The position numbers and the translations under genes were made by a program. From assembly GCF_000147335.1 (NCBI RefSeq), contig NC_014501.1:1302001-1366000 (forward strand): DNA of 64,000 nucleotides, given 5' to 3'. Shown here piece by piece: positions 2,665 through 57,729 of this stretch. Below the pieces are notes generated by a model, which saw only the letters and a program-made list of their open reading frames with translations, had not been told where the DNA came from and ran no database searches. How positions within the stretch are numbered: the first letter of the stretch is position 1; every line of letters starts with the position of its first letter. Source of the DNA: Gloeothece verrucosa PCC 7822 (GTDB lineage: Bacteria > Cyanobacteriota > Cyanobacteriia > Cyanobacteriales > Microcystaceae).

Positions 2665-4437
2665 TTAACTTTTAAGCCATCCGTAATGGTTTTCTTGTTG
2701 ACTGGGAGAGAGATTTTTCATCTTTACGAGTTCATAGCGACTGGGTTGGGGGGCAGCCAGTTCGACTGTCAGCGTCCTCAATTCATCTTGATGAAAAACG
2801 GTTATTTTAATTTTATCACCAGCTTGATAATCTTTAAGCCGCTCATTTAATTGGTTCGCCGTTATTTTTATGCCATCAAGTGCTAATAACTCATCTTCGG
2901 CATCTATTCCAGCTTGACAGGCGGGTGAACCGATTTCTACAAATTTTATTTTTTCTTTACCATTTTCACTTTGAGCTTTAATTCCCAAGCTAGGGATAGC
3001 TTCTTGTTCTATTACTTTCTCCAGTTGTAAGCCAAAGGGTTCTAAGTATTCCTCAAAGGGTAATTCATCAGTTCCGTCAATATATTTTGCCAAGAAATCA
3101 TTTAAATCCATTCCCGCCACTGATTCAAGGATTTCTTGTAACTGTTGGGGAGTAAAACCGATTTCTGATTTGCCAAATTTTTCCCATAACTGACGCATCA
3201 CATCATCGAGTGAACGTTGATTATTGTGGCGTGAGCGAATGAGCAAATCTAATAATAATGAGACTAATTCTCCTTTAAGATAATAGGATATTTGACTATT
3301 ATCACTGTTAGCATCTCGCCGATATAATTTAATCCAAGCATCAAAACTAGATTCCCCGAGAGTTTGTACTTTCCGTCCGGGAATTTGTAAGTAACGGGTA
3401 ATATCTTTACTGAAGTTTTCTAATAAGTTTTTGCTGTCATAAAGTTTTGCCCAATAGGGAATGACAATATCATAATAGCTGGTTGTGCCTTCTGAAAACC
3501 ATAAAGATGTGGTATAGTTTTCGGCTTCATAATCAAAAACTTCTAGGGCTTTTGGGCGAATTCGTTTAACATTCCATAAATGAAAGAATTCATGAGCGAC
3601 TAATTGCAGAAAAGCATTATATTGAGATTTGTCTCGAAATCCGAAACGCGAATAAATGAGGGAACAAGAATTTTTATGTTCTAAGCCGCCATAACCATTG
3701 CCGCTTAGATGCAGTAAAAACAGATATTTCTCGTAGGGTAACCCGCCAAATAATTCTGCTTGTACCTTAATAATTTTTTGAGTATCTTCGATAATTTTAG
3801 CGGCCACTGCATTGCCTTGTCCCCAAATGGCTAATTGATGGGGTTTACCTAATACGTCAAACTCATAAAGTTGATGAATCCCTATTTCAAAAGGACTATC
3901 CACTAAGGTATCAAAATCTTGAGCTTGATAGGTATGTTCTTGGCCTGGGATGGCCGGTAAAGCGGTAGTGACTCGCCAATCCGGATGAGGCGGTACAATG
4001 GTGACGGTGATGGGATGTTTTTCTAAACCCGGAACAAAAAAGAAGAGAGCGGCTCCGTTAAAATAGCCGTGAGTAGCATCTAAATGGTTGGTCCTGACGG
4101 TTAACTCATGGGCAAAAACACGGTATTTAACCGTTATTTCTGAGACGGCAGAAGTTTCAATTTCCCACTCGTTTTTGCGGGTTTTTTGACTGACTAAAAC
4201 TTGACCTTCGGGACCGCTAGCGCAAAAATCCTGCACTAATCTGGCATATTCTCGCACTAAATAAGAACCCGGAGTCCATACAGGCATTTTTAAAGTTAAT
4301 ACAGAAGCTTGCCACCCTTTAACTTGTAGCGTTACTTCAAATAAGTGGGAAGTGGGTTGTCCCATAGCCACTTGATAAGAAAGGGTTGGGAGATTTTCTG
4401 TGATGAGTTGCTGTGGTGCTAAGGCGGCTTTAGTCAT
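2665..4437 (-). CDS. M61 family aminopeptidase with PDZ domain
   Basis: A 590-residue zinc metallopeptidase of the glycyl-aminopeptidase (M61) family. The zinc-binding HExxH motif lies in QLVAHEFFHLWNVKRIRP, and the downstream glutamate region is SLWFSEGTTSYYDIV. The N-terminal half is a beta-rich domain typical of M61 (VTLQVKGWQASVLTLKMPVW). The C-terminal hundred residues form a PDZ-like domain (IGSPACQAGIDAEDELLALD). There is no convincing signal peptide, so it is probably cytoplasmic. It lies 22 bases downstream of the Crp-like regulator on the same strand and may share its transcript. Substrates of cyanobacterial M61 enzymes are not established. Confidence 0.88.
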   Translation of the reverse strand: MTKAALAPQQLITENLPTLSYQVAMGQPTSHLFEVTLQVKGWQASVLTLKMPVWTPGSYLVREYARLVQDFCASGPEGQVLVSQKTRKNEWEIETSAVSEITVKYRVFAHELTVRTNHLDATHGYFNGAALFFFVPGLEKHPITVTIVPPHPDWRVTTALPAIPGQEHTYQAQDFDTLVDSPFEIGIHQLYEFDVLGKPHQLAIWGQGNAVAAKIIEDTQKIIKVQAELFGGLPYEKYLFLLHLSGNGYGGLEHKNSCSLIYSRFGFRDKSQYNAFLQLVAHEFFHLWNVKRIRPKALEVFDYEAENYTTSLWFSEGTTSYYDIVIPYWAKLYDSKNLLENFSKDITRYLQIPGRKVQTLGESSFDAWIKLYRRDANSDNSQISYYLKGELVSLLLDLLIRSRHNNQRSLDDVMRQLWEKFGKSEIGFTPQQLQEILESVAGMDLNDFLAKYIDGTDELPFEEYLEPFGLQLEKVIEQEAIPSLGIKAQSENGKEKIKFVEIGSPACQAGIDAEDELLALDGIKITANQLNERLKDYQAGDKIKITVFHQDELRTLTVELAAPQPSRYELVKMKNLSPSQQENHYGWLKS

Positions 4438-4459
4438 TACCTCTTGAGTTGAGAAATTA

Positions 4460-5143
4460 TTAGAGTTGTTTAACCAGATGATTTAGCTGTTTAAGGTTAC
4501 TGAGGGCTAAAGTTTGATGAGATTTATCGATTTCAATCCATCCTTTATGGTGAATGCTTTCTAGTATTTTACCTGTTTCTTCTTCATTAATACCAGCCAG
4601 GTCCGCTAAGTCTGAGTCAGGAATATATAATATTTCTGTGCCTCTTTCGGTGGACTGACCATAATTTTCGGCTAAGGCGATCAAGGTTTTGACGAGTCTG
4701 ACTTTGGCTGAGTATTGAGATAACAGAAAGCGGCGATAAGACTGACGGACTCGTTTAACGGTAAGTTGTAGCATCCGATGATGCAGTTGGGGTTCTTTAT
4801 ACAACATTTGGATAAAACGTTGGGCTGATATAGACACGAGTTCTACATCAGATAGGGCCACAACCTCGGTTAAACGCGGCGCTTCATCCAAAACGGCCAT
4901 TTCTCCGAAGCAATCCCCTCGACTTAAAATATCTAATGTGACTTGCTGTTCTCGGGAACTATAGCGGATTTTGATCCAACCCGATACCACGAAAAAAACC
5001 GCTTTGCCCCAATTATCCTCGGTAATTAAGACAGTATCTTTGGGATAGTCCTGTTCTTCTACCACCGATAGTAGCCACTCAAGGGTGTCAGCACTGGCAA
5101 AGTCAAATAGAGGGAAAATCTCGCTAAAAGCGTTTGTTTCCAT
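4460..5143 (-). CDS. Crp/Fnr-family transcription regulator
   Basis: A 227-residue regulator with an N-terminal cyclic-nucleotide-binding beta-roll (about residues 10-125). The phosphate-binding cassette has the wording GDCFGEMAVLDEAPRLTEVV, close to the GEhALh-x-x-x-PRTAT consensus, although the canonical Arg-Thr pair is Arg-Leu here. A long dimerisation helix follows, then a winged HTH (about 150-227: DSDLADLAGINEEETGKILE as recognition region). The ligand is unclear: the altered cassette could mean cAMP, another ligand or none. It precedes the M61 peptidase by 22 bases in an apparent operon. Its targets cannot be read from the sequence. Confidence 0.88.
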   Translation of the reverse strand: METNAFSEIFPLFDFASADTLEWLLSVVEEQDYPKDTVLITEDNWGKAVFFVVSGWIKIRYSSREQQVTLDILSRGDCFGEMAVLDEAPRLTEVVALSDVELVSISAQRFIQMLYKEPQLHHRMLQLTVKRVRQSYRRFLLSQYSAKVRLVKTLIALAENYGQSTERGTEILYIPDSDLADLAGINEEETGKILESIHHKGWIEIDKSHQTLALSNLKQLNHLVKQL

Positions 5144-5337
5144 TAAAGGTCTGTCAAGATGAAGATATAGGCTTCTACTAGGTCTATTCTATGGGGAGAA
5201 CAGTCCAGAATTCGGGAATAAGGGGTTAGCTGATACCATTATTGTACTCCCCAATAGTTAAAAGCTTATTCTTAAATTACAGCACACCCGCGAATTTTTG
5301 CTCAAATTTATCAACTCTTGTCAACCCAACTACCTCT

Positions 5338-5997
5338 CTAAACCGGTGTTAGGTCTTGGTTAGCTAAGGTTAGTAAGTTACGCACTTCGTCGTCACTGGT
5401 TTGGGAAAAATCTTGATACCAAAGGCTTATAGAATGTAAGGGTTCTGGTTGTTGCCAACAGATCACTTGATCCACTTCAGAGTTTAACTCTTGACAGGTT
5501 TCCGGGGGAGCAACCGGAACCGCGATGATGATTTTGCTAGGATGATGTTGTTTTAGGGTAGCAATAGCCGCGCGGACCGTTGAACCGGTGGCAATTCCAT
5601 CATCTACTAGAATAATCGTTTGCTTCTCTAAATCTGGAAAAGGCCGATTTTCCCGATAAAGGCGGTCTCGTCTTTCTAACTCTATTTGTTCGCTGTCTGC
5701 CACTTGTTCGATAATCTCATCGCTGATATTTAACCAGCCTACAATCTCCTGATTAATCACTCTAACGCCTCCTGCACCGATGGCTCCCATCGCTAACTCT
5801 TTTCGCCCCGGAACGCCCAGTTTTCGCACTAAGCACACATCTAGCGGTAAATGCAGTTTTTTGGCAATTTCAAAAGCCACCGGCACCCCGCCTCGGGGAA
5901 GGGCTAAAACTAATACATCTGAACGGTTGGCATATTCAGCTAAGGGGATGGTCAATAATTGACCCGCGTGGGTTCGATTTTCTAAAATTTCAGTCAT
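5338..5997 (-). CDS. Phosphoribosyltransferase-domain protein
   Basis: A 219-residue type I PRTase-fold protein. The PRPP-binding signature is clear (TIILVDDGIATGSTVRAA), and the N-terminal region LVLALPRGGVPVAFEIA followed by DVCLVRKLGVPGRKELAMGA matches the group of free-standing PRTases often annotated only as 'phosphoribosyltransferase'. The substrate base or ligand is not known for this group. It ends with a segment (SISLWYQDFSQTSDDEV) seen in the same group. It stands alone, with 194 bases to the Crp gene and a 326-base gap upstream. Confidence 0.85.
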   Translation of the reverse strand: MTEILENRTHAGQLLTIPLAEYANRSDVLVLALPRGGVPVAFEIAKKLHLPLDVCLVRKLGVPGRKELAMGAIGAGGVRVINQEIVGWLNISDEIIEQVADSEQIELERRDRLYRENRPFPDLEKQTIILVDDGIATGSTVRAAIATLKQHHPSKIIIAVPVAPPETCQELNSEVDQVICWQQPEPLHSISLWYQDFSQTSDDEVRNLLTLANQDLTPV

Positions 5998-6323
5998 AAT
6001 GGTAGGTCCCTTGTGCTAACTATATTGTTATGGGGAAAGTTAAGGGCGGCTCAAAGTATGCTCCTAGACAATGGGTAAATAATTTGTTTGAAAATATATT
6101 GATGAGATCATCTAATGGTCTAGTCCTGATTGAAAGAGCAACAGCGAGTTAGGGCTTTTCTCTATCTATAGCTTAACAACTTCTTTTGAATATCAATGTT
6201 AAAATATATAGCAGGGCGAAAAAGTCAGGGATAAGCCGCTAAAATATGATCAAGGATTGATGGTAAAATCCCGTTAAAATCCCTTTAAATAAAATTTATA
6301 GAAAAAGAGTTTATAAAAAAATT
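5998..6323. other. Intergenic region between divergent genes
   Basis: This 326-base AT-rich gap separates the phosphoribosyltransferase gene (leftward) from the archease-rtcB operon (rightward), so it must hold both promoters. No ORF with a recognisable product, no RNA gene and no clear hairpin was found. No consensus promoter could be assigned with confidence, and no strong Shine-Dalgarno sequence precedes the archease ATG. Confidence 0.5.
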
Positions 6324-6746
6324 ATGCCGGAAACAAGAGAAATATTAGGATTTGAAGAAATTGAACATACGGCTGATTGGGCTTATCGAGTTTGGGGAAG
6401 CAATTTAGAAGAGTTATTTATTAGAGCCGCTCAAGGATTATATTACTTAGCCGGAGCTAAACTCGGTGAGGGGGAAAGCATTGAGCGAGAAATAGAAGTG
6501 AGGGGAATAGATGCAGAAAGTCTATTAGTAGCGACTTTAAATGAATTATTGCACCTCCATGACCAGGAAAATTTAGCCGTTGAGACTTTAAATATTCTGC
6601 TTTTTGAACCCACAAGGATGGAAGCTAAATTAAGTTTAAAACCCGTTCAAGAATGGATTAAAGATATTAAAGCGGCTACCTATCACAACATTGCTATTAA
6701 ACCCACCGAGGAGGGGTTAGAAGTCACCCTTGTATTAGATGTTTAA
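6324..6746 (+). CDS. Archease, activator of RtcB RNA ligase
   Basis: Archease is a small protein that speeds RtcB guanylylation and broadens its nucleotide use. The 140-residue product matches the family length. Visible marks are the metal-binding N-terminal motif [13 protein letters not shown], the [17 protein letters not shown] helix, the central [18 protein letters not shown] segment, and the C-terminal [19 protein letters not shown], in which archeases place further acidic metal ligands. It lies 20 bases upstream of rtcB on the same strand, which is the classic functional pairing and supports the call independently. Confidence 0.93.
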
Positions 6747-6766
6747 AATGTCAAAAAAGCAAACCC

Positions 6767-8218
6767 ATGATTACTAAACAAGACTGTCGGAAAATCAATA
6801 ATTATATCTGGGAAATTTCCACCTCTTTTAAACCGCAAATGACGGTTCCGGTTTGGATTTTTGCCGATGAGGAACTGTTAGAAGAAGCCCTAAAAGATTT
6901 ATCAGTTACTCAAGCGGTTAATGTGGCCTGTTTACCCGGTTTAGCCGGCCATGTGGCCATTATGCCCGATGTTCATCAAGGCTATGGGATGCCTATTGGC
7001 GGCGTGATGGCGGCGCGAGTTCCCGATGGGATTATTTCGCCGGGGGCAGTGGGATATGATATTAACTGCGGCGTGAGAGTGTTAGCCTCCGGAATAGACT
7101 ACAAAAGCGCTAAACGTCATCTACCAGAGTTAGCCACTGCCCTCTATCGTAACTGTCCTAGCGGCGTAGGCGGTAAAGGCAGCGTTCCCCTATCTGCCGA
7201 GGAATTAGATAAAATGTGCCGTCAAGGGGCAAAATGGGCACTCGAAAAAGGTTACGCCACCGAAGAAGACTTACAGCGTACAGAAGAATTTGGTTGCTTG
7301 GAAGGGGCAGACCCCAATAGTGTCAGTAAGCGGGCAAAAGATCGCGGTAGAGGGCAACTGGGGACTCTAGGGGCAGGAAACCACTTTTTAGAGGTGGATG
7401 TGATCGAAGAAATTTTCGATCAGGATGCGGCTGATATTATGGGGCTTTATGAGGGTTGCCTCGCCATTCAAATTCACTGCGGTTCAAGAGGGTTTGGGCA
7501 TCAAATTTGTACTGACTATGTACAAGATTTTCAACTGGCTGTGATTAATTATGGCATTCAATTACCAGACCGAGAGTTAGTTTGTGCCCCAATTAGTTCT
7601 AAAGAAGGTCAAGCTTATTTAGGGGCGATGAAAGCGGCGGCGAATTTTGCTTTTGCTAACCGTCAAACCTTGGCCTATCACGCGCGGCAAAGTTTTGAGG
7701 AGGTGTTTGGTTCTCAAACGGGTAATCATGCCCTACGTCAGGTGTATGATATTGCCCATAATATGGCCAAGATTGAGCAACATAATATTAATGGGGAAGA
7801 GATGACCGTCTGTGTCCACCGCAAGGGCGCGACTCGGGCTTTTGGTCCTGGGTTTGAAGGGTTACCCCCAGAATATCAAGAAATTGGTCAGCCGGTGTTG
7901 GTGCCGGGTTCGATGGGTACCGAAAGCTGGATACTGTTGGGAACTGAGGCGAATGATGCTTTGTCTTTTGGTTCGAGTTGTCATGGGGCCGGACGGGTGA
8001 TGAGTCGCAGTAAGGCCAAAAAGGAAATTCGCGGCGAACGCCTTAGAGGAGAGTTGGAAAAAGAGGGGATCAATGTCCGCGCCGGTTCTCTGCCGGGACT
8101 CGCTGAAGAAGCGCCGCAAGCTTATAAGGATGTTAACCGTGTGGTGGAAACTGTCAGTCAGGCGGGTATTGCCCATAAGGTTGCGCGTCTACGTCCGGTG
8201 GCGGTGGTTAAGGGATAA
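6767..8218 (+). CDS. rtcB: RNA-splicing ligase RtcB (3'-phosphate/5'-OH RNA ligase)
   Basis: This enzyme joins RNA 2',3'-cyclic phosphate or 3'-phosphate ends to 5'-OH ends using GTP and Mn2+. The 483-residue length is that of an intein-free RtcB. The Mn ligands and active site are all visible: [12 protein letters not shown] (Asp and Cys), [35 protein letters not shown], and the guanylylated histidine in [11 protein letters not shown]. The [12 protein letters not shown] motif is intact. It follows the archease gene by 20 bases, so both are likely cotranscribed. In a cyanobacterium, where no tRNA needs RtcB for splicing, the likely role is RNA repair after endonucleolytic damage. Confidence 0.96.
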
Positions 8219-48875: not shown

Positions 48876-48948
<73 letters not shown>

Positions 48949-49041
48949 TCTAAACAAAAAGCTTAAATCCCTTACTACAACCGAGTTTCAGGGGTTTAAA
49001 ATGTTTGTGCAGAACTTAGCTTAAATTGTAAACTGACATCG

Positions 49042-49320
49042 ATGGAATATTTATTATCTGTGGGGTTGAGTTTTGAGGCGGCTTCTGGGATACTTCAGCA
49101 GTTGAAGGAATTTGAACCAGATTTTGCTAATCGGGAAATTTTTAAGCGCTTGATGTTAGTTTTTGATGAATCTGTGGGAATACTTAAGTTGAAGGATTTT
49201 AATAGAGAGGAGGCTATCGCTTTTGTTGATAAAGGTTTCCCAGTTATTCCTGTTTGGTTGGATGGGATTTATCAGCAACTTATCAATAAACTCAAAAAAG
49301 CTATTTCTATTCATGGATAA
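49042..49320 (+). CDS. Small helical protein, first gene of the methyltransferase-HerA-NurA operon
   Basis: A 92-residue, mostly helical protein: MEYLLSVGLSFEAASGILQQ, LKEFEPDFANREIFKRLMLV, and a C-terminal helix QQLINKLKKAISIHG. It has no signal, membrane segment or recognised domain. Its last 8 bases overlap the ATG of the methyltransferase gene (49313), so the two are translationally coupled. The position suggests a regulator or accessory subunit of the system. I do not recognise the family. Confidence 0.7.
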   Translation: MEYLLSVGLSFEAASGILQQLKEFEPDFANREIFKRLMLVFDESVGILKLKDFNREEAIAFVDKGFPVIPVWLDGIYQQLINKLKKAISIHG

Positions 49321-50302
49321 TCACAGTAAAATATTGCCTGCCCAAGAAACAAACTCAGGTTGTTATTATGTTGGTGAGGCTGAAAAAGTCTTGAAAGAAT
49401 CCTATTTTTGTAAGTTCAAAGGCCAAATACAGTTAATTTTTACATCTCCGCCTTTTCCTCTTAATAGTAAAAAAAGTTATGGCAATATGCTGGGTGACGA
49501 ATATCTTCAATGGTTTACCGATTTAGCTCCTCTCTTTGCGGAAATGTTAACTGAAGATGGCTCTATTGTTATTGAATTGGGTAATAGTTGGGAATCCCAA
49601 CGTCCTGTCCAATCATTACTGCCTTTACAATCATTGTTGAGTTTTGTTTCGTGTGCAGGAACTAATTTACGCCTTATTCAAGAATTTATTTGTTACAATC
49701 CATCTCGCTTACCTTCTCCTGCTAATTGGGTAACAGTTAACCGCATCAGAACTGTAGATAGTTATACTCGTTTATGGTGGGTAGCTAAAACGGATTCTCC
49801 TAAAGCAGATAATTCTAAAGTATTGCGTCCTTATAGTGAACGCATGAAATACCTTCTTAGAACTGGCAATTATAACTCAGGTAAAAGACCCTCTGAGCAT
49901 AAAATTGGAAAAACTAGCTTTTTAAAAGATTGTGGTGGTTCTATTGCTCATAATTTCCTAGAATTAGACGATATGGACTCTCAAAGAAAAGTTCGTCTAC
50001 CTAATGCTTTTTCTTATTCAAATAGCAGTTCTAATAATTTTTTTGCTAAAACTTGTAAAGAACGGAAAATCACGCCTCATCCTGCACGAATGCCAATGGG
50101 ATTGCCAGCATTTTTTATTGAGTTTTTAACCGATCCTGGAGATTGGGTATTAGACCCTTTTGCTGGTAGTAATACAACTGGATATGCAGCAGCCAGACTA
50201 AATCGAAAATGGTTAGCAATAGATGCAGAAAAACAATTTGTCGAGCAGTCAAAAATTCGTTTTGAAGACCCTACATTAAAAACACAAACACCATCTGAAT
50301 AA
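49313..50302 (+). CDS. Beta-class DNA methyltransferase (N4-cytosine or N6-adenine)
   Basis: From the coupled ATG it has 329 residues. Catalytic motif IV is TSPPF (residues 44-48), and the AdoMet-binding motif I, DPFAGSNTTG, comes late (281-290). That IV-before-I order defines class beta. TSPP[YF] is commonest in N4-cytosine enzymes but is also found in N6-adenine ones. The HPARMPMGLPAFFIEFL segment before motif I is motif X-like. It transfers a methyl group from AdoMet to DNA and would mark self. A longer frame upstream to 49223 only shadows the preceding gene. The next gene follows within 20 bases. Confidence 0.93.
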   Translation: MDNHSKILPAQETNSGCYYVGEAEKVLKESYFCKFKGQIQLIFTSPPFPLNSKKSYGNMLGDEYLQWFTDLAPLFAEMLTEDGSIVIELGNSWESQRPVQSLLPLQSLLSFVSCAGTNLRLIQEFICYNPSRLPSPANWVTVNRIRTVDSYTRLWWVAKTDSPKADNSKVLRPYSERMKYLLRTGNYNSGKRPSEHKIGKTSFLKDCGGSIAHNFLELDDMDSQRKVRLPNAFSYSNSSSNNFFAKTCKERKITPHPARMPMGLPAFFIEFLTDPGDWVLDPFAGSNTTGYAAARLNRKWLAIDAEKQFVEQSKIRFEDPTLKTQTPSE

Positions 50303-50321
50303 ATTTATGAGGATTATTCAA

Positions 50322-52349
50322 ATGAGCATTATTCAGAAACTCACACAACCTAATCTTTTTAAACGTAATAAATCTACGGGTGATTGGGAAACAGGGATAT
50401 TTGTTGGTCGTCCATTTAGACTTAGTTATACTAAAGCAGAAATATTAGTAGCTGATGCTTGGAAGCAACAAGCAAAAGGTATTCCTCAAAGTTGTTTTCT
50501 TTTGGCTTATTATGACAATGAACTTGATAAGCAAAACGATATTGAAGCAGTATTGCTCAGAGTTATTCAACCAACAAAATTACCAACGGATCAAGAGGTA
50601 ATTAGTAGTATGGTTGAATATTATAAAGATGATATAAAAACAGGAGAAACGAAAAAATCTCAGTTAGACACTTTCACTCGTTACGAATTTTCTTTTAGCG
50701 GTTTAGAATGTTCTATACTAGGTTCTTTTTACATTGATGAAAATAGAAAAACTCGTTTTGGGGCAGATTTAGAAAATTTTTATAGTGCCCATAATTACTC
50801 TGTTATTAAGCCTTCAGCAGAGATTTTAAAAGCTATTGTTAACTATCGGGAAAATGGGACTCCCGGAGGCTCTGGAGACATAAAAATTGGTAAAGTTCGT
50901 TATAGTTCTAGTCGACGGTTTCAGCAACAAGAGAATGACGTAATAGTTTATGTTCAAGCTCCTGATTTTGCTGGAACAAGAACTGCTCTTTTTGGAATGA
51001 CTCGAACCGGAAAATCTAACACAGTTAAAAAGATCATTCAATCTTGTGTTGAAATGAGCAATAATGCTCCTTTAACTTTAGATAAAAAGCAAGAAGATCC
51101 AGAAGATGTGCTTAAACGTTTCACAGAAGATAATAACCCTAAGTATCCAATTGGACAAATTATTTTTGATATTAATGGAGAATATGCTAATCCTAATCTT
51201 CAAGATCAAGGCACAGCTATTTTTGATTTATATGAAGAGCAAACAGTTAGATATTCAACAGTTCCTAAAAAAGGCTTTAAGGAAATGAAGGTTAACTTTT
51301 ATAGGGAAATTGAAAACGGTTTTGAAATAATAAAAAGCTATCCTACTATAGCAGAAGACAGAACTAGATTTGTTACAAATTTTAAATCTGTTGATCTGAT
51401 AAAACCGGAAGATTATCAAAATAATCACTCAGCAAGAAATCGTTACGATAGAAAACTTTCCGTATATTTATGTTGTCTTTTCCGGGCTGGTTTTCAAGTT
51501 CCCAATAATTTTACAGTAAGATTTTCAGCGAATCAAAATGTCCGAAATGATGTTAATCCAGATGTTAATCCGTCTTCAGGATTAAATCTTGAAGAAGCTG
51601 CAAATTGGTGGGAAAATTTTTGGAACATTTATGAGGCAGATCCTAATGGCACTTTCAGCAATTATAGGCAACAAAATGAAGGACGTGAATGGGCAGATGA
51701 TGATCTAAAAGCTTTGCTTGTCATACTAACTCGTAGAAGTCGTTCAGGAAAAGATGCTGATTGTTATGGATTTCGTATTCTTAAACCTATTGTAAAACAG
51801 CATACTAGCACTAATCAAGCACCATTTGACCAAGATATTCTCAATAATTTAAGACAAGGCAAAATTGTTATTGTTGATCTTTCACTGGGTAATGCTGAAA
51901 TACAAGCCATCTTTAGTGAAAGAATATGTCAAAGAATTTTTGCTGATGCTATCAGTCGCTTTACTAGCACTCGTCCTAATAATTTTATTCAATTCTATTT
52001 TGAAGAAGCACATAATCTTTTTCCTAAAAAAGATGATAAAGATTTATCCCAAATTTATAATAGATTAGCTAAAGAAGGAGCTAAGTTAAATCTTGGTTTA
52101 ATTTACGCTACTCAAGAAGTGAGTTCAATTAGCAGTAATATTTTAAAAGCAACTCAAAACTGGTTTATATCTCATTTAAACAATGAAGATGAAATTAAGG
52201 AATTGAGAAAATACTATGATTTTAGCGATTTTACAGAGAGTTTAATTCGCTTTAGTCAAGACACAGATAAAGGTTTTGTTCGTATGAAAACTTACAGCAA
52301 TCCTTTTGTGATTCCAGTTCAAATTGATCGTTTTCCTCCTGAAGATTAA
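50322..52349 (+). CDS. HerA-like hexameric translocase ATPase
   Basis: A 675-residue protein from ATG 50322, chosen over 50307 because GAGG stands 9 bases before it. The N-terminal part has the HAS-barrel-like sequence FVGRPFRLSYTKAEILVAD. The FtsK/HerA core shows Walker A LFGMTRTGKSNTVKKI (about 224-239), a second strand IIFDINGEYANP (about 280-291), Walker B FIQFYFEEAHNLFP (about 555-568), and a sensor segment YATQEVSSISSN. HerA proteins pump DNA and pair with NurA nucleases in archaeal end resection; bacterial forms often sit in defence loci. It lies between the methyltransferase and NurA genes. Confidence 0.93.
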   Translation: MSIIQKLTQPNLFKRNKSTGDWETGIFVGRPFRLSYTKAEILVADAWKQQAKGIPQSCFLLAYYDNELDKQNDIEAVLLRVIQPTKLPTDQEVISSMVEYYKDDIKTGETKKSQLDTFTRYEFSFSGLECSILGSFYIDENRKTRFGADLENFYSAHNYSVIKPSAEILKAIVNYRENGTPGGSGDIKIGKVRYSSSRRFQQQENDVIVYVQAPDFAGTRTALFGMTRTGKSNTVKKIIQSCVEMSNNAPLTLDKKQEDPEDVLKRFTEDNNPKYPIGQIIFDINGEYANPNLQDQGTAIFDLYEEQTVRYSTVPKKGFKEMKVNFYREIENGFEIIKSYPTIAEDRTRFVTNFKSVDLIKPEDYQNNHSARNRYDRKLSVYLCCLFRAGFQVPNNFTVRFSANQNVRNDVNPDVNPSSGLNLEEAANWWENFWNIYEADPNGTFSNYRQQNEGREWADDDLKALLVILTRRSRSGKDADCYGFRILKPIVKQHTSTNQAPFDQDILNNLRQGKIVIVDLSLGNAEIQAIFSERICQRIFADAISRFTSTRPNNFIQFYFEEAHNLFPKKDDKDLSQIYNRLAKEGAKLNLGLIYATQEVSSISSNILKATQNWFISHLNNEDEIKELRKYYDFSDFTESLIRFSQDTDKGFVRMKTYSNPFVIPVQIDRFPPED

Positions 52350-52374
52350 ATTAGTTTAAATAAACTCAAAAATT

Positions 52375-53727
52375 ATGGGATATACCAGTAAAAATAACCG
52401 TCGTCCTTTTGAAAGTGCAAGTAAAGCTTCACATCATCATATTATTAAAGATCCAGAGGTTCAAGCAGTAATGCAAAGAATTGAAGAACCTCCTCAAGTT
52501 GAGGATATTTCTACTGAACAATTGATAGAAGATTTTGAACCATCTCAAAATAATCCTGTAGAGGCTATTATTGCCGTAGATGGCGGTTACACAGAAGTAG
52601 TTTTAAATAAAGAATTTCCTTCTCGAACTATCCATTTTTTACAATTTGGAGCTTTATTTTTTAAGTCAGAGGATTTAGCTGAAGTCGATTCATCAGCTTT
52701 TATTGACCCTAAAGATATGGCAAAACTAAAAAATATTCAGCGTCTAAAATTAGCCCTACCTACTCGTAACCTATGCTTTAAAGATAGTAGTACCCTTAAA
52801 GGTACTGTATTAAAAGCAATTTATGAATTTTTTATGAAAAATAATTTAGATGAAGATAAAAGTTTAATAGATACCTTGGCATGGTTTGTATTTCGTAAAT
52901 ATAAACAAGGAAAAAGAACAGAACAAGATAAATACTGGAATTTAGGAAGAAATCCATTAAGTGTAGATAATAATTCAGTTCGTTTATTTGAAAGCGAAAT
53001 GAATAGAAATTATACTTTTAAATGTCCTGAAACTGGAGGAATAATTTATTTAACTGATATTTTTCGGCTTCATGAAGTTATTGATGAAGAAACAGGAGCA
53101 GGCGGTATTTTAGGTTATTTAGTTAATGTAATTGAACACTTAATTATCATTCATTTAATTAGATTATTATGTAACAGACAGCCAGAAATGCTCAAGAAAG
53201 TTTTATTTATTAAAGATGGTTCAACTGGCTTTTTTGGACAAACTGCACAACTTCATGTTGCAATGCAAGATTTAGTCAATTGGCTTTTAGATGAACATAA
53301 TATATTATTAGCTGGATTAGAAAAAAGTGGAGCTTTTGTTGATCACGCTCAAGATATACAAAACAAACTCGACAATGGAAAAGCACTTATTTTGAGTGAT
53401 AATTATATTTATCGTTATATTTTACCGGGAACGGGTGATCCAAATCTTCCTTATGCTTCTACTAGCAACTATGGACATAAACTTATTTTTAAAACTAGAA
53501 ATGGACAAATGTATGTTGTTGCAGTTCCAGTAAGAGAACTTAAGAAAAATCCAACTATTAATGACTTACCAAATTTACAAACTATTTTAGATAATGTAGA
53601 AAAATTACGTTGTGATATGTATGATTCTGCTTTATTCCCTGTAGCTTTAGTAAATAAATTAGTAAGTCTTTCTGCATATCCTAGCCAAAGAATTCTTACT
53701 AAATTTGCTAATAACACTATTAAGTAA
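52375..53727 (+). CDS. NurA-domain nuclease
   Basis: A 450-residue protein with the RNase-H-like NurA pattern: a first strand with metal-binding Asp in AIIAVDGGYTEVVL (residue 69), and VLFIKDGSTGFFG (Asp281), in the position of the second acidic motif. A lysine-containing segment LLAGLEKSGAFVDHA (about 312-326) follows, and then LSDNYIYRYILPG. NurA is a 5'-3' nuclease that docks on the HerA hexamer. It is 25 bases downstream of herA. The N-terminal 60 residues are acidic and probably disordered. Base composition of this and the two preceding genes is more AT-rich than the neighbours. Confidence 0.87.
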   Translation: MGYTSKNNRRPFESASKASHHHIIKDPEVQAVMQRIEEPPQVEDISTEQLIEDFEPSQNNPVEAIIAVDGGYTEVVLNKEFPSRTIHFLQFGALFFKSEDLAEVDSSAFIDPKDMAKLKNIQRLKLALPTRNLCFKDSSTLKGTVLKAIYEFFMKNNLDEDKSLIDTLAWFVFRKYKQGKRTEQDKYWNLGRNPLSVDNNSVRLFESEMNRNYTFKCPETGGIIYLTDIFRLHEVIDEETGAGGILGYLVNVIEHLIIIHLIRLLCNRQPEMLKKVLFIKDGSTGFFGQTAQLHVAMQDLVNWLLDEHNILLAGLEKSGAFVDHAQDIQNKLDNGKALILSDNYIYRYILPGTGDPNLPYASTSNYGHKLIFKTRNGQMYVVAVPVRELKKNPTINDLPNLQTILDNVEKLRCDMYDSALFPVALVNKLVSLSAYPSQRILTKFANNTIK

Positions 53728-57148: not shown

Positions 57149-57439
57149 TCATGAAAATTGACGGTTAACATCTCTTGCTTGATGTAAAACTCTAATAATT
57201 TCGATTCCCTCGACAGTTTTAGTATAAAAAATAAGATAAGGTTTAACAGGAAAGCTTCTAAGTCCTACTAGCAGATCGTCTCGTTGCTTTCCCAGATCGG
57301 GAAATTGAGATAACATGGGAAATCGGTTTAAAATTTGAGCAATTTGTTGATCGGCTAAGAGTTCATCCTGCTGTGCTAGGTAAACCCAAATATCTTCTAA
57401 ATCTTGTTCTGCCTGCCGTGAAAGACGAAAACGATTCAT
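57149..57439 (-). CDS. ParE/RelE-superfamily toxin
   Basis: A 96-residue toxin with the ParE pattern: FRLSRQAEQDLEDIWVYLAQ at the N-terminus, FPDLGKQRDDLLVGLRSFPV and YLIFYTKTVEGIEIIRVLHQ, then ARDV at the C-terminus. The R-D-D-L-x-x-G-L-R-x-F segment is highly typical. ParE toxins inhibit gyrase, whereas RelE types cut mRNA; the sequence favours ParE. Its ATG overlaps the stop of the preceding antitoxin gene (TAATG). Confidence 0.88.
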   Translation of the reverse strand: MNRFRLSRQAEQDLEDIWVYLAQQDELLADQQIAQILNRFPMLSQFPDLGKQRDDLLVGLRSFPVKPYLIFYTKTVEGIEIIRVLHQARDVNRQFS

Positions 57440-57729
57440 TAAATTTGCTCCTGCTGAAGCCTTTGTTTGCTCCGCATCTTAATCGTTTCAAGCAAACTGG
57501 GCAACGAGGACTCATCATAGTCTGTATAATTACCGTTTTTGAGTTGTTCTGCACCTACTGAAAGATCATGTTGTAAGACTTGCCGTTTATGTTGAAGTTC
57601 TTCACTATTCAAGGATGAAAACTGAATTTTCTGCGCGAGGAGTTGTTGTTCCTCGTCGGTAAGAGAAAGGATAATTTGAGCAAGAGAGTCTATCAATTTT
57701 GTATTAATTGAAGCAGCAGGTTGGCTCAT
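57439..57729 (-). CDS. Antitoxin of the adjacent ParE-like toxin
   Basis: A 96-residue protein. The middle (IILSLTDEEQQLLAQKIQFS) and C-terminal tail (NGNYTDYDESSLPSLLETIK) fit cyanobacterial antitoxins with an N-terminal DNA-binding region and a flexible toxin-binding tail. The call rests mainly on coupling to the toxin (stop/start overlap). No standard MetJ/Arc or AbrB fold can be confirmed by eye. Confidence 0.7.
   Translation of the reverse strand: MSQPAASINTKLIDSLAQIILSLTDEEQQLLAQKIQFSSLNSEELQHKRQVLQHDLSVGAEQLKNGNYTDYDESSLPSLLETIKMRSKQRLQQEQI

Follow-up and report, generated by a model that had tools for sequence, protein, structure and literature searches.

A three-gene methyltransferase–HerA–NurA cassette of Gloeothece verrucosa as a candidate restriction-modification-like defence system

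Genes of the cassette and their products

The 64,000-nucleotide stretch of the Gloeothece verrucosa PCC 7822 genome analysed here (contig NC_014501.1, positions 1,302,001 to 1,366,000; hereafter the window) contains a cassette of three genes encoding a beta-class DNA methyltransferase, a HerA-type hexameric ATPase, and a NurA-like nuclease, which is located next to a tRNA-Phe gene (Table 1). The initial annotation described these genes, together with a small open reading frame (ORF) preceding them, as a four-gene operon and a candidate defence system. The four ORFs and the distance to the tRNA-Phe gene are as it had reported. The methyltransferase gene overlaps the first ORF by 8 bp, the gap between the methyltransferase and HerA genes is 4 bp to the first ATG of HerA and 19 bp to the second one, which the initial annotation had used, and HerA is separated from the nuclease by 25 bp. 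The working unit comprises three genes and not four, as the first ORF is a remnant of a transposon regulator (see below).

The methyltransferase matches PF01555 with an E-value of 2.1e-29 and is similar over its full length to M.PvuII (PDB: 1boo), with E-values of 2.1e-65 for the single sequence (residues 8–323) and 2e-83 for a profile. Motif IV (TSPPF) precedes motif I (DxFxGSNTTG), which is the arrangement of M.PvuII-like beta-class enzymes producing N4-methylcytosine (m4C). Because the alignment to M.PvuII is full-length, N4-cytosine methylation is the best prediction of the activity of the enzyme. The hexamer CAGCTG, a first candidate for the target site of the enzyme, was found once in 111 kb of the same genome (the window and L031–L033), compared to 7.8 occurrences expected, which ranks it 16th of 64, with many palindromes likewise low. 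Many palindromic hexamers are strongly avoided in this sample, including CCATGG (0 observed, 14.8 expected) and CTGCAG (0 observed, 12.6 expected), which suggests past exposure to many restriction systems. The same genome also encodes a further M.PvuII-like methyltransferase, at C1:2027913-2028875, which is more distantly related (44% identity).

The HerA-type protein matches DUF87, the central domain of HerA, with an E-value of 6.7e-12. Its best match in the PDB is TdpA (8wet), with E-values of 5e-19 for the single sequence and 3.4e-21 for a profile, ahead of the entries for Sir2-HerA, HerA-DUF4297, and Sulfolobus HerA. The similarity to TdpA spans mainly the C-terminal part of the protein. 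The NCBIfam "HerA_antiphage" models score 46 and 37 bits, far below their cut-offs of 800 and 850.

The nuclease itself does not match the Pfam NurA family, which is matched weakly by 11 of its 18 close relatives, and with E-values of up to 2e-21 by distant ones. Since a search of NurA entries in the PDB gave no direct sequence match, even with a profile, the identity of the protein was settled by its predicted fold. The AlphaFold2 model has a predicted local distance difference test score (pLDDT) of 79 and a predicted template modelling score of 0.82, and its top Foldseek matches are TdpB and NurA. In the VIA comparison, the model aligns to TdpB with a Z-score of 19.6 over 316 residues and a root-mean-square deviation of 4.3, and to SsoNurA with a Z-score of 13.4. 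Sequence identity to TdpB is about 11%. The model thus identifies a NurA-fold nuclease closest to TdpB, and the domains named in the initial annotation hold for all three proteins. Residues D69, E254, D281, and K317 are invariant in an alignment of 18 nuclease homologues, including archaeal and phage ones, with sequence identities from 86% down to 22%. The nuclease also matches the PADLOC profile REase_II weakly (15.8 bits, 0.0012). Most of the relatives contain a zinc-ribbon-like CxxC...CxxC insert (nuclease residues 194–220), most of the cysteines of which are lost in the nucleases of the window, genome G056, and Opitutaceae.

The cassette is an AT-rich island beside the tRNA-Phe gene. Across the three genes, the GC content is 32.3%, compared to a mean of 40.7% (standard deviation 1.7, minimum 38.0%) in 203 overlapping windows of equal size outside this region. 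The flanking genes encode HemJ (UPF0093) and an AhpC/TSA protein. The nearest relative of the cassette, in genome G056, has the same gene order and about 81–87% protein identity. Relative to this copy, the ratio of nonsynonymous to synonymous substitution rates (dN/dS) is 0.095 for the methyltransferase, 0.104 for HerA, and 0.181 for the nuclease, which indicates that all three genes are maintained by purifying selection.

Table 1. Features of the cassette and its surroundings, in coordinates of the window
Feature	Position	Strand	Basis or remark
tRNA-Phe (GAA)	48876..48948	+	ARAGORN; oriented toward cassette, 93 bp upstream of first ORF
5'-truncated cvkR-type MerR gene, helix-turn-helix lost, not a core component	49041..49320 (ORF 49042-49320, 92 aa)	+	blastn
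Beta-class DNA methyltransferase, M.PvuII-like, predicted N4-cytosine	49313..50302, ATG 49313	+	PF01555, PDB 1boo
Catalytic motif IV, TSPPF	49442..49456	+	Invariant in alignment of 11
S-adenosylmethionine-binding motif I, DPFAG	50153..50167	+	D, P, F, G invariant in alignment of 11
HerA-type hexameric DNA translocase ATPase, TdpA-like	50307..52349, alternative start 50322	+	DUF87, PDB 8wet
Walker A, GMTRTGKS	50994..51017	+	Invariant in 13 HerA proteins
Walker B region, FYFEEAH	51993..52013	+	Invariant in 13 HerA proteins
Predicted NurA-fold nuclease, TdpB-like	52375..53727	+	AlphaFold2 model, Foldseek, Pfam NurA in relatives
D69, predicted metal ligand (IAVDGG)	52579..52581	+	Invariant in 18 homologues
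D281, predicted metal ligand (IKDGS)	53215..53217	+	Invariant in 18 homologues

Recurrence and carriage of the cassette

A scan of genome contigs provided 19 loci, and whole genomes of cyanobacteria and Bacillota, plasmids, and phages gave more. The neighbourhoods of 29 loci are readable (the window, L004, L006, L008, L009, L012–L014, L016–L023, L025, and L089–L100); L015 lies on the same contig as L006, and L007, L011, and L024 end at contig edges. Among the ten Bacillota genomes with a match, the neighbourhoods used are those other than in G624, G625, and G729. The 29 loci are not fully independent, as L006, L017, and L018 are near-identical and five Nostocales loci belong to one clade. HerA adjoins NurA in all 29 loci. 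The HerA–NurA loci come from no fewer than eight phyla of bacteria, a plasmid of a haloarchaeon, and a phage of Vibrio; the carriers belong to Cyanobacteria (including Gastranaerophilales/Melainabacteria), Verrucomicrobiota, Bacteroidota, Bacillota, Synergistota, Bipolaricaulota, and Deferribacterota, in addition to the haloarchaeon and the phage. Partial loci were found in Actinomycetota and a Deltaproteobacterium. The recurring adjacency and the low dN/dS values show that the grouping of the genes is not due to chance.

A DNA methyltransferase is located immediately beside HerA–NurA in 24 of the 29 loci, and these methyltransferases come from three families. The M.PvuII-like beta-class enzyme is the partner in 15 loci, which constitute the clade of the window. 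A permuted PF01555 enzyme occurs in five loci (L022 of Anoxybacillus/Thermaerobacillus, L091 of Deferribacter, L092 of Halorarius, L097, and L098), and a D12/Dam-like enzyme in four (L093 of the Vibrio phage, L095, L096, and L099). On a nuclease tree of 26 rows, the partner label requires five changes, where the minimum for four labels is three, and L022 is nested among the loci of the M.PvuII type; the deep branches of the tree are weak.

The nuclease was found in 3 of 386 cyanobacterial and 10 of 398 Bacillota genomes. Some homologue of the methyltransferase at 1e-20 is present in 45 of the 386 cyanobacterial genomes, and M.PvuII-like enzymes at about 44–47% identity are widespread in Nostocales, being common in a family of this order that is probably Nostocaceae. 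The rarity of the nuclease, set against these common distant enzymes, indicates that the cassette clade is accessory and that its methyltransferase is not a solitary core enzyme.

Cassettes are found in the vicinity of diverse defence genes. The neighbours of L008 are a cyclase of the cyclic-oligonucleotide-based antiphage signalling system (CBASS) and a SAVED-HNH effector, KwaB of Kiwa is encoded near L025, and Dsr2 near L021. Genes for AbiEi/AbiEii abut the methyltransferase in L016, and a type I methyltransferase HsdM, a type IIG enzyme, and AbiTii are found near L012, L009, and L089, respectively. A Tn7-like element encoding TnsD and TnsE carries the L022 cassette as cargo, and other copies are found on plasmids and in a temperate Vibrio phage. 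In this phage (L093:1309-5751), HerA in two ORFs, the NurA-like nuclease, and the D12 methyltransferase are located beside an integrase. A scan of viral contigs with the nuclease profile gave no match, and two closely similar Vibrio phage records hold a distant copy. HerA is broken or split in L019, L020, L093, and L100, and in L091 (Deferribacter megaplasmid, 4126–7924) it is split by an IS200/IS605 tnpA–tnpB insertion. L010 is a decayed cassette, as its nuclease carries D69N and HerA was not detected there.

The first ORF of the window links the cassette to CRISPR-associated transposons (CASTs). It is 91% identical over 234 bp to an intact gene of the same genome (L033, 8399–8827; blastn), located near tRNA-Cys at C1:5.2 Mb by TnsB- and TnsC-like genes. 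The match starts at 49041, past the part encoding the helix-turn-helix. Sequence comparison thus identifies the ORF, which the initial annotation had described as a small helical protein, as a 5'-truncated cvkR, the gene for a MerR-type regulator of V-K CASTs, and the four-gene operon was rejected. In G056, an intact 141-residue MerR protein (MerR_1, 4.6e-12) is encoded at the equivalent place, and no MerR gene adjoining the cassette was seen in most of the other loci.

The cassette of G056 is carried as cargo by a complete V-K CAST, the genes of which are in the order tnsB, tnsC, tniQ; nurA, herA, methyltransferase, merR on the opposite strand; cas12k; and tRNA-Leu. Its cas12k matches NF038191 with 425 bits, and the ends of the element are of the TGTACA type. 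In V-K CASTs, cvkR is located beside and divergent from cas12k, with a tRNA gene at the left end, and the elements typically sit downstream of a tRNA gene pointing towards them (PMC9938897). The window retains the order tRNA, truncated cvkR, methyltransferase, herA, nurA. Genes for cas12k and tns and recognised CAST ends, which would complete a V-K CAST, were not found at this locus, and terminal repeats around the cassette were seen neither by eye nor by blastn against G056. The truncated cvkR, the tRNA gene, and the gene order make it likely that the island is a decayed V-K CAST next to tRNA-Phe. The initial annotation regarded the surrounding genes as ordinary, which is true of the flanks but overlooks this apparent transposon remnant. 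An empty hemJ/tRNA-Phe site was sought in relatives, the gene order of which is too different, with tRNA-Phe never adjoining hemJ. V-K CASTs and Tn7-like elements spread such cassettes.

The same genome contains a separate V-K CAST locus (L031, C6:386944-388909), with tnsB, tnsC, and tniQ nearby and a cas12k in two overlapping frames, which is probably broken. The region L033:8399-14355 (C1), downstream of tRNA-Cys, comprises the intact cvkR-type MerR gene, followed by a gene for a 926-residue protein and by TnsC- and TnsB-like genes. Two neighbouring 96-residue ORFs of the window (57149–57729) resemble a toxin-antitoxin pair of the ParDE/RelBE type.

Proposed mode of action and alternatives

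It is probable that the cassette provides a restriction-modification-like (R-M-like) defence, in which methylation shields the DNA of the host and HerA–NurA degrades unmarked DNA. The methyltransferase would place m4C in a short sequence of the host chromosome. A HerA hexamer and a NurA dimer would assemble into a single motor-nuclease complex. Once loaded on DNA, this complex would pump the duplex into the nuclease and degrade it, unless it encounters the cognate mark. Phage or plasmid DNA lacking the mark would be destroyed, and the cassette would travel as swappable cargo. The mark may block the motor or the nuclease rather than an initial cut. Candidates for the recognition of its absence are the N-terminal region of HerA and the zinc-ribbon-like insert of the nuclease.

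The presence of interchangeable methyltransferase families beside one core suggests that the methylation state is what matters, as in R-M systems. In the TdpABC system, phosphorothioate inhibits TdpAB on self DNA. HerA–NurA complexes have a 6:2 architecture and degrade both strands from DNA ends (PMC12977600). Together, the two precedents suggest that the mark protects self DNA. The initial annotation had likewise proposed self/non-self discrimination by methylation, and its proposal is supported by the linkage of the genes across distant taxa, the exchange of methyltransferases, the defence neighbours, the mobile carriage, and the similarity to TdpAB, from which we infer the defence activity.

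Several observations weigh against the R-M-like mode of action. The cassette lacks a sequence-specific endonuclease or an obvious recognition subunit, which leaves the recognition of unmarked DNA unexplained. Five loci of one Nostocales lineage (L089, L090, L094, L008, and L009) contain HerA–NurA with no methyltransferase beside it, and the pair may therefore be able to act alone in some cases or depend on an enzyme in trans. Three of these loci are on plasmids and have a small XRE-type regulator upstream. The genome of L008 (G395) encodes an intact M.PvuII-like methyltransferase (47% identity) at another place, and this enzyme might provide protection in trans. The close clade is rare in cyanobacteria, and the model of HerA, with a pLDDT of 59, is too poor to test its fold. 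Finally, DNA donation is the reported role of an element of Thermus that encodes a PF01555 methylase together with NurA and an ATPase of the HerA family (PMC5365140).

An addiction module, persisting mainly by the post-segregational killing of cells or lineages that lose it, with a minor antiphage benefit, would have the same R-M-like layout with the methyltransferase first, and would be expected on plasmids and transposons. However, the cassettes are clustered with unrelated defence systems, and we consider this explanation unlikely, although defence and addiction are compatible. About as unlikely is a DNA-donation module, in which HerA would pump chromosomal DNA and NurA would trim it, as proposed for ICETh1 of Thermus thermophilus. 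In ICETh1, a single operon inserted at a tRNA gene encodes NurA, an N4/N6 methylase, and an ATPase of the HerA family, and donation is lost or much reduced when tdtA or nurA is deleted (PMC5365140). In contrast, the window island contains no relaxase, integrase, or pilus gene, the transposons, plasmids, and phage that carry cassettes move by their own means, and the neighbours are defence genes.

A role in DNA repair, in which broken ends would be resected or degraded by HerA–NurA, as is the case in archaea and Deinococcus, with the methyltransferase being incidental, agrees with the NurA fold, the HerA domain, and the known biology of the pair (PMC12977600). It is nevertheless very unlikely given the adjacent methyltransferases of three families, the sporadic distribution in cyanobacteria and Bacillota, the mobile carriage, and the closer similarity of both partners to TdpAB than to archaeal HerA–NurA; end resection is also disputed by the 2026 Thermococcus study itself (PMC12977600). 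The sequence is also compatible with methylation being a type IV-like target signal or the methyltransferase regulating the operon, but no tool result favours either, a host-encoded methyltransferase linked to the nuclease would make the host itself a target for destruction, and three unrelated families would each need a regulatory role, which makes these readings highly improbable.

The R-M-like defence can be extended to an unnamed, widespread form of ATP-dependent restriction, in which restriction is carried out by HerA–NurA alone, the pair itself senses base methylation, and methyltransferases of the m4C, permuted N4/N6, and Dam-like kinds replace one another on a common core in bacteria, archaea, and phages. 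We regard the case for this extension as evenly balanced. Classical restriction requires a sequence-specific endonuclease, whereas here a processive motor-nuclease is apparently policed by ordinary base methylation. If true, the TdpAB principle extends from phosphorothioate to common methyl marks, and HerA–NurA gains a general immune role, which has been in question since the archaeal pair was found to degrade both strands. The known R-M-like systems would also gain a class that has no name in PADLOC-DB 2.0.0.

Comparison with known systems

No named methyltransferase–HerA–NurA defence system was found in the open-access literature or family libraries, in agreement with the initial annotation, and an earlier description elsewhere is possible. 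PADLOC-DB labels the parts generically as MTase_II and HerA. Of MADS (methylation-associated defence, mad1–mad8), the cassette contains only a weak mad8 match of HerA (43.3 bits) and no other mad gene.

The archaeal and Deinococcus HerA–NurA share the nuclease fold, the ATPase family, and presumably the 6:2 architecture with the cassette (PMC12977600). However, their descriptions include no methyltransferase as operon partner, whereas the cassette clade is sporadic and mobile, and most of its nucleases have the zinc-ribbon-like insert. Sir2-HerA (Nezha) and HerA-DUF4297 also combine a HerA ATPase with an effector enzyme for antiphage defence, but the effectors are Sir2 or DUF4297 and there is no methyltransferase, whereas the partner in the cassette has a predicted NurA fold. 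The type II R-M system PvuII has a methyltransferase similar over its full length to that of the cassette; however, the cassette has no endonuclease of the R.PvuII type, its proteins match no restriction endonuclease family beyond the weak REase_II hit, and its nuclease is a predicted NurA fold beside a motor.

ICETh1, likened to the cassette by gene content only, has genes for the same three functions (nurA, tdtA, and the PF01555 methylase TTC1880) in an operon located at a tRNA gene, but its reported role is DNA donation and it includes the type IIG enzyme Tth111II and an integrase (PMC5365140). HerA/FtsK capture, DndFGH, and BREX-related capture also employ a translocase and modification enzymes against invaders, but with different nuclease and accessory sets, and NurA is not mentioned in their descriptions (PMC10853773, PMC12839542).

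The closest resemblance is to TdpABC (PDB: 8wet, 8wfd, 8y1k). TdpA and TdpB are the best solved matches of the HerA-type ATPase and the nuclease, respectively, and a DNA-modifying enzyme completes the three-gene set in both systems. TdpABC is a phosphorothioate-dependent defence of thermophiles, whereas the modifier of the cassette is a base methyltransferase, m4C-like in the window and permuted or Dam-like in relatives; a PF01555 gene is linked to the cassette, and not a phosphorothioation enzyme of the TdpC type. The cassette is therefore best read as a TdpABC-like, R-M-like system in which base methylation replaces phosphorothioate.

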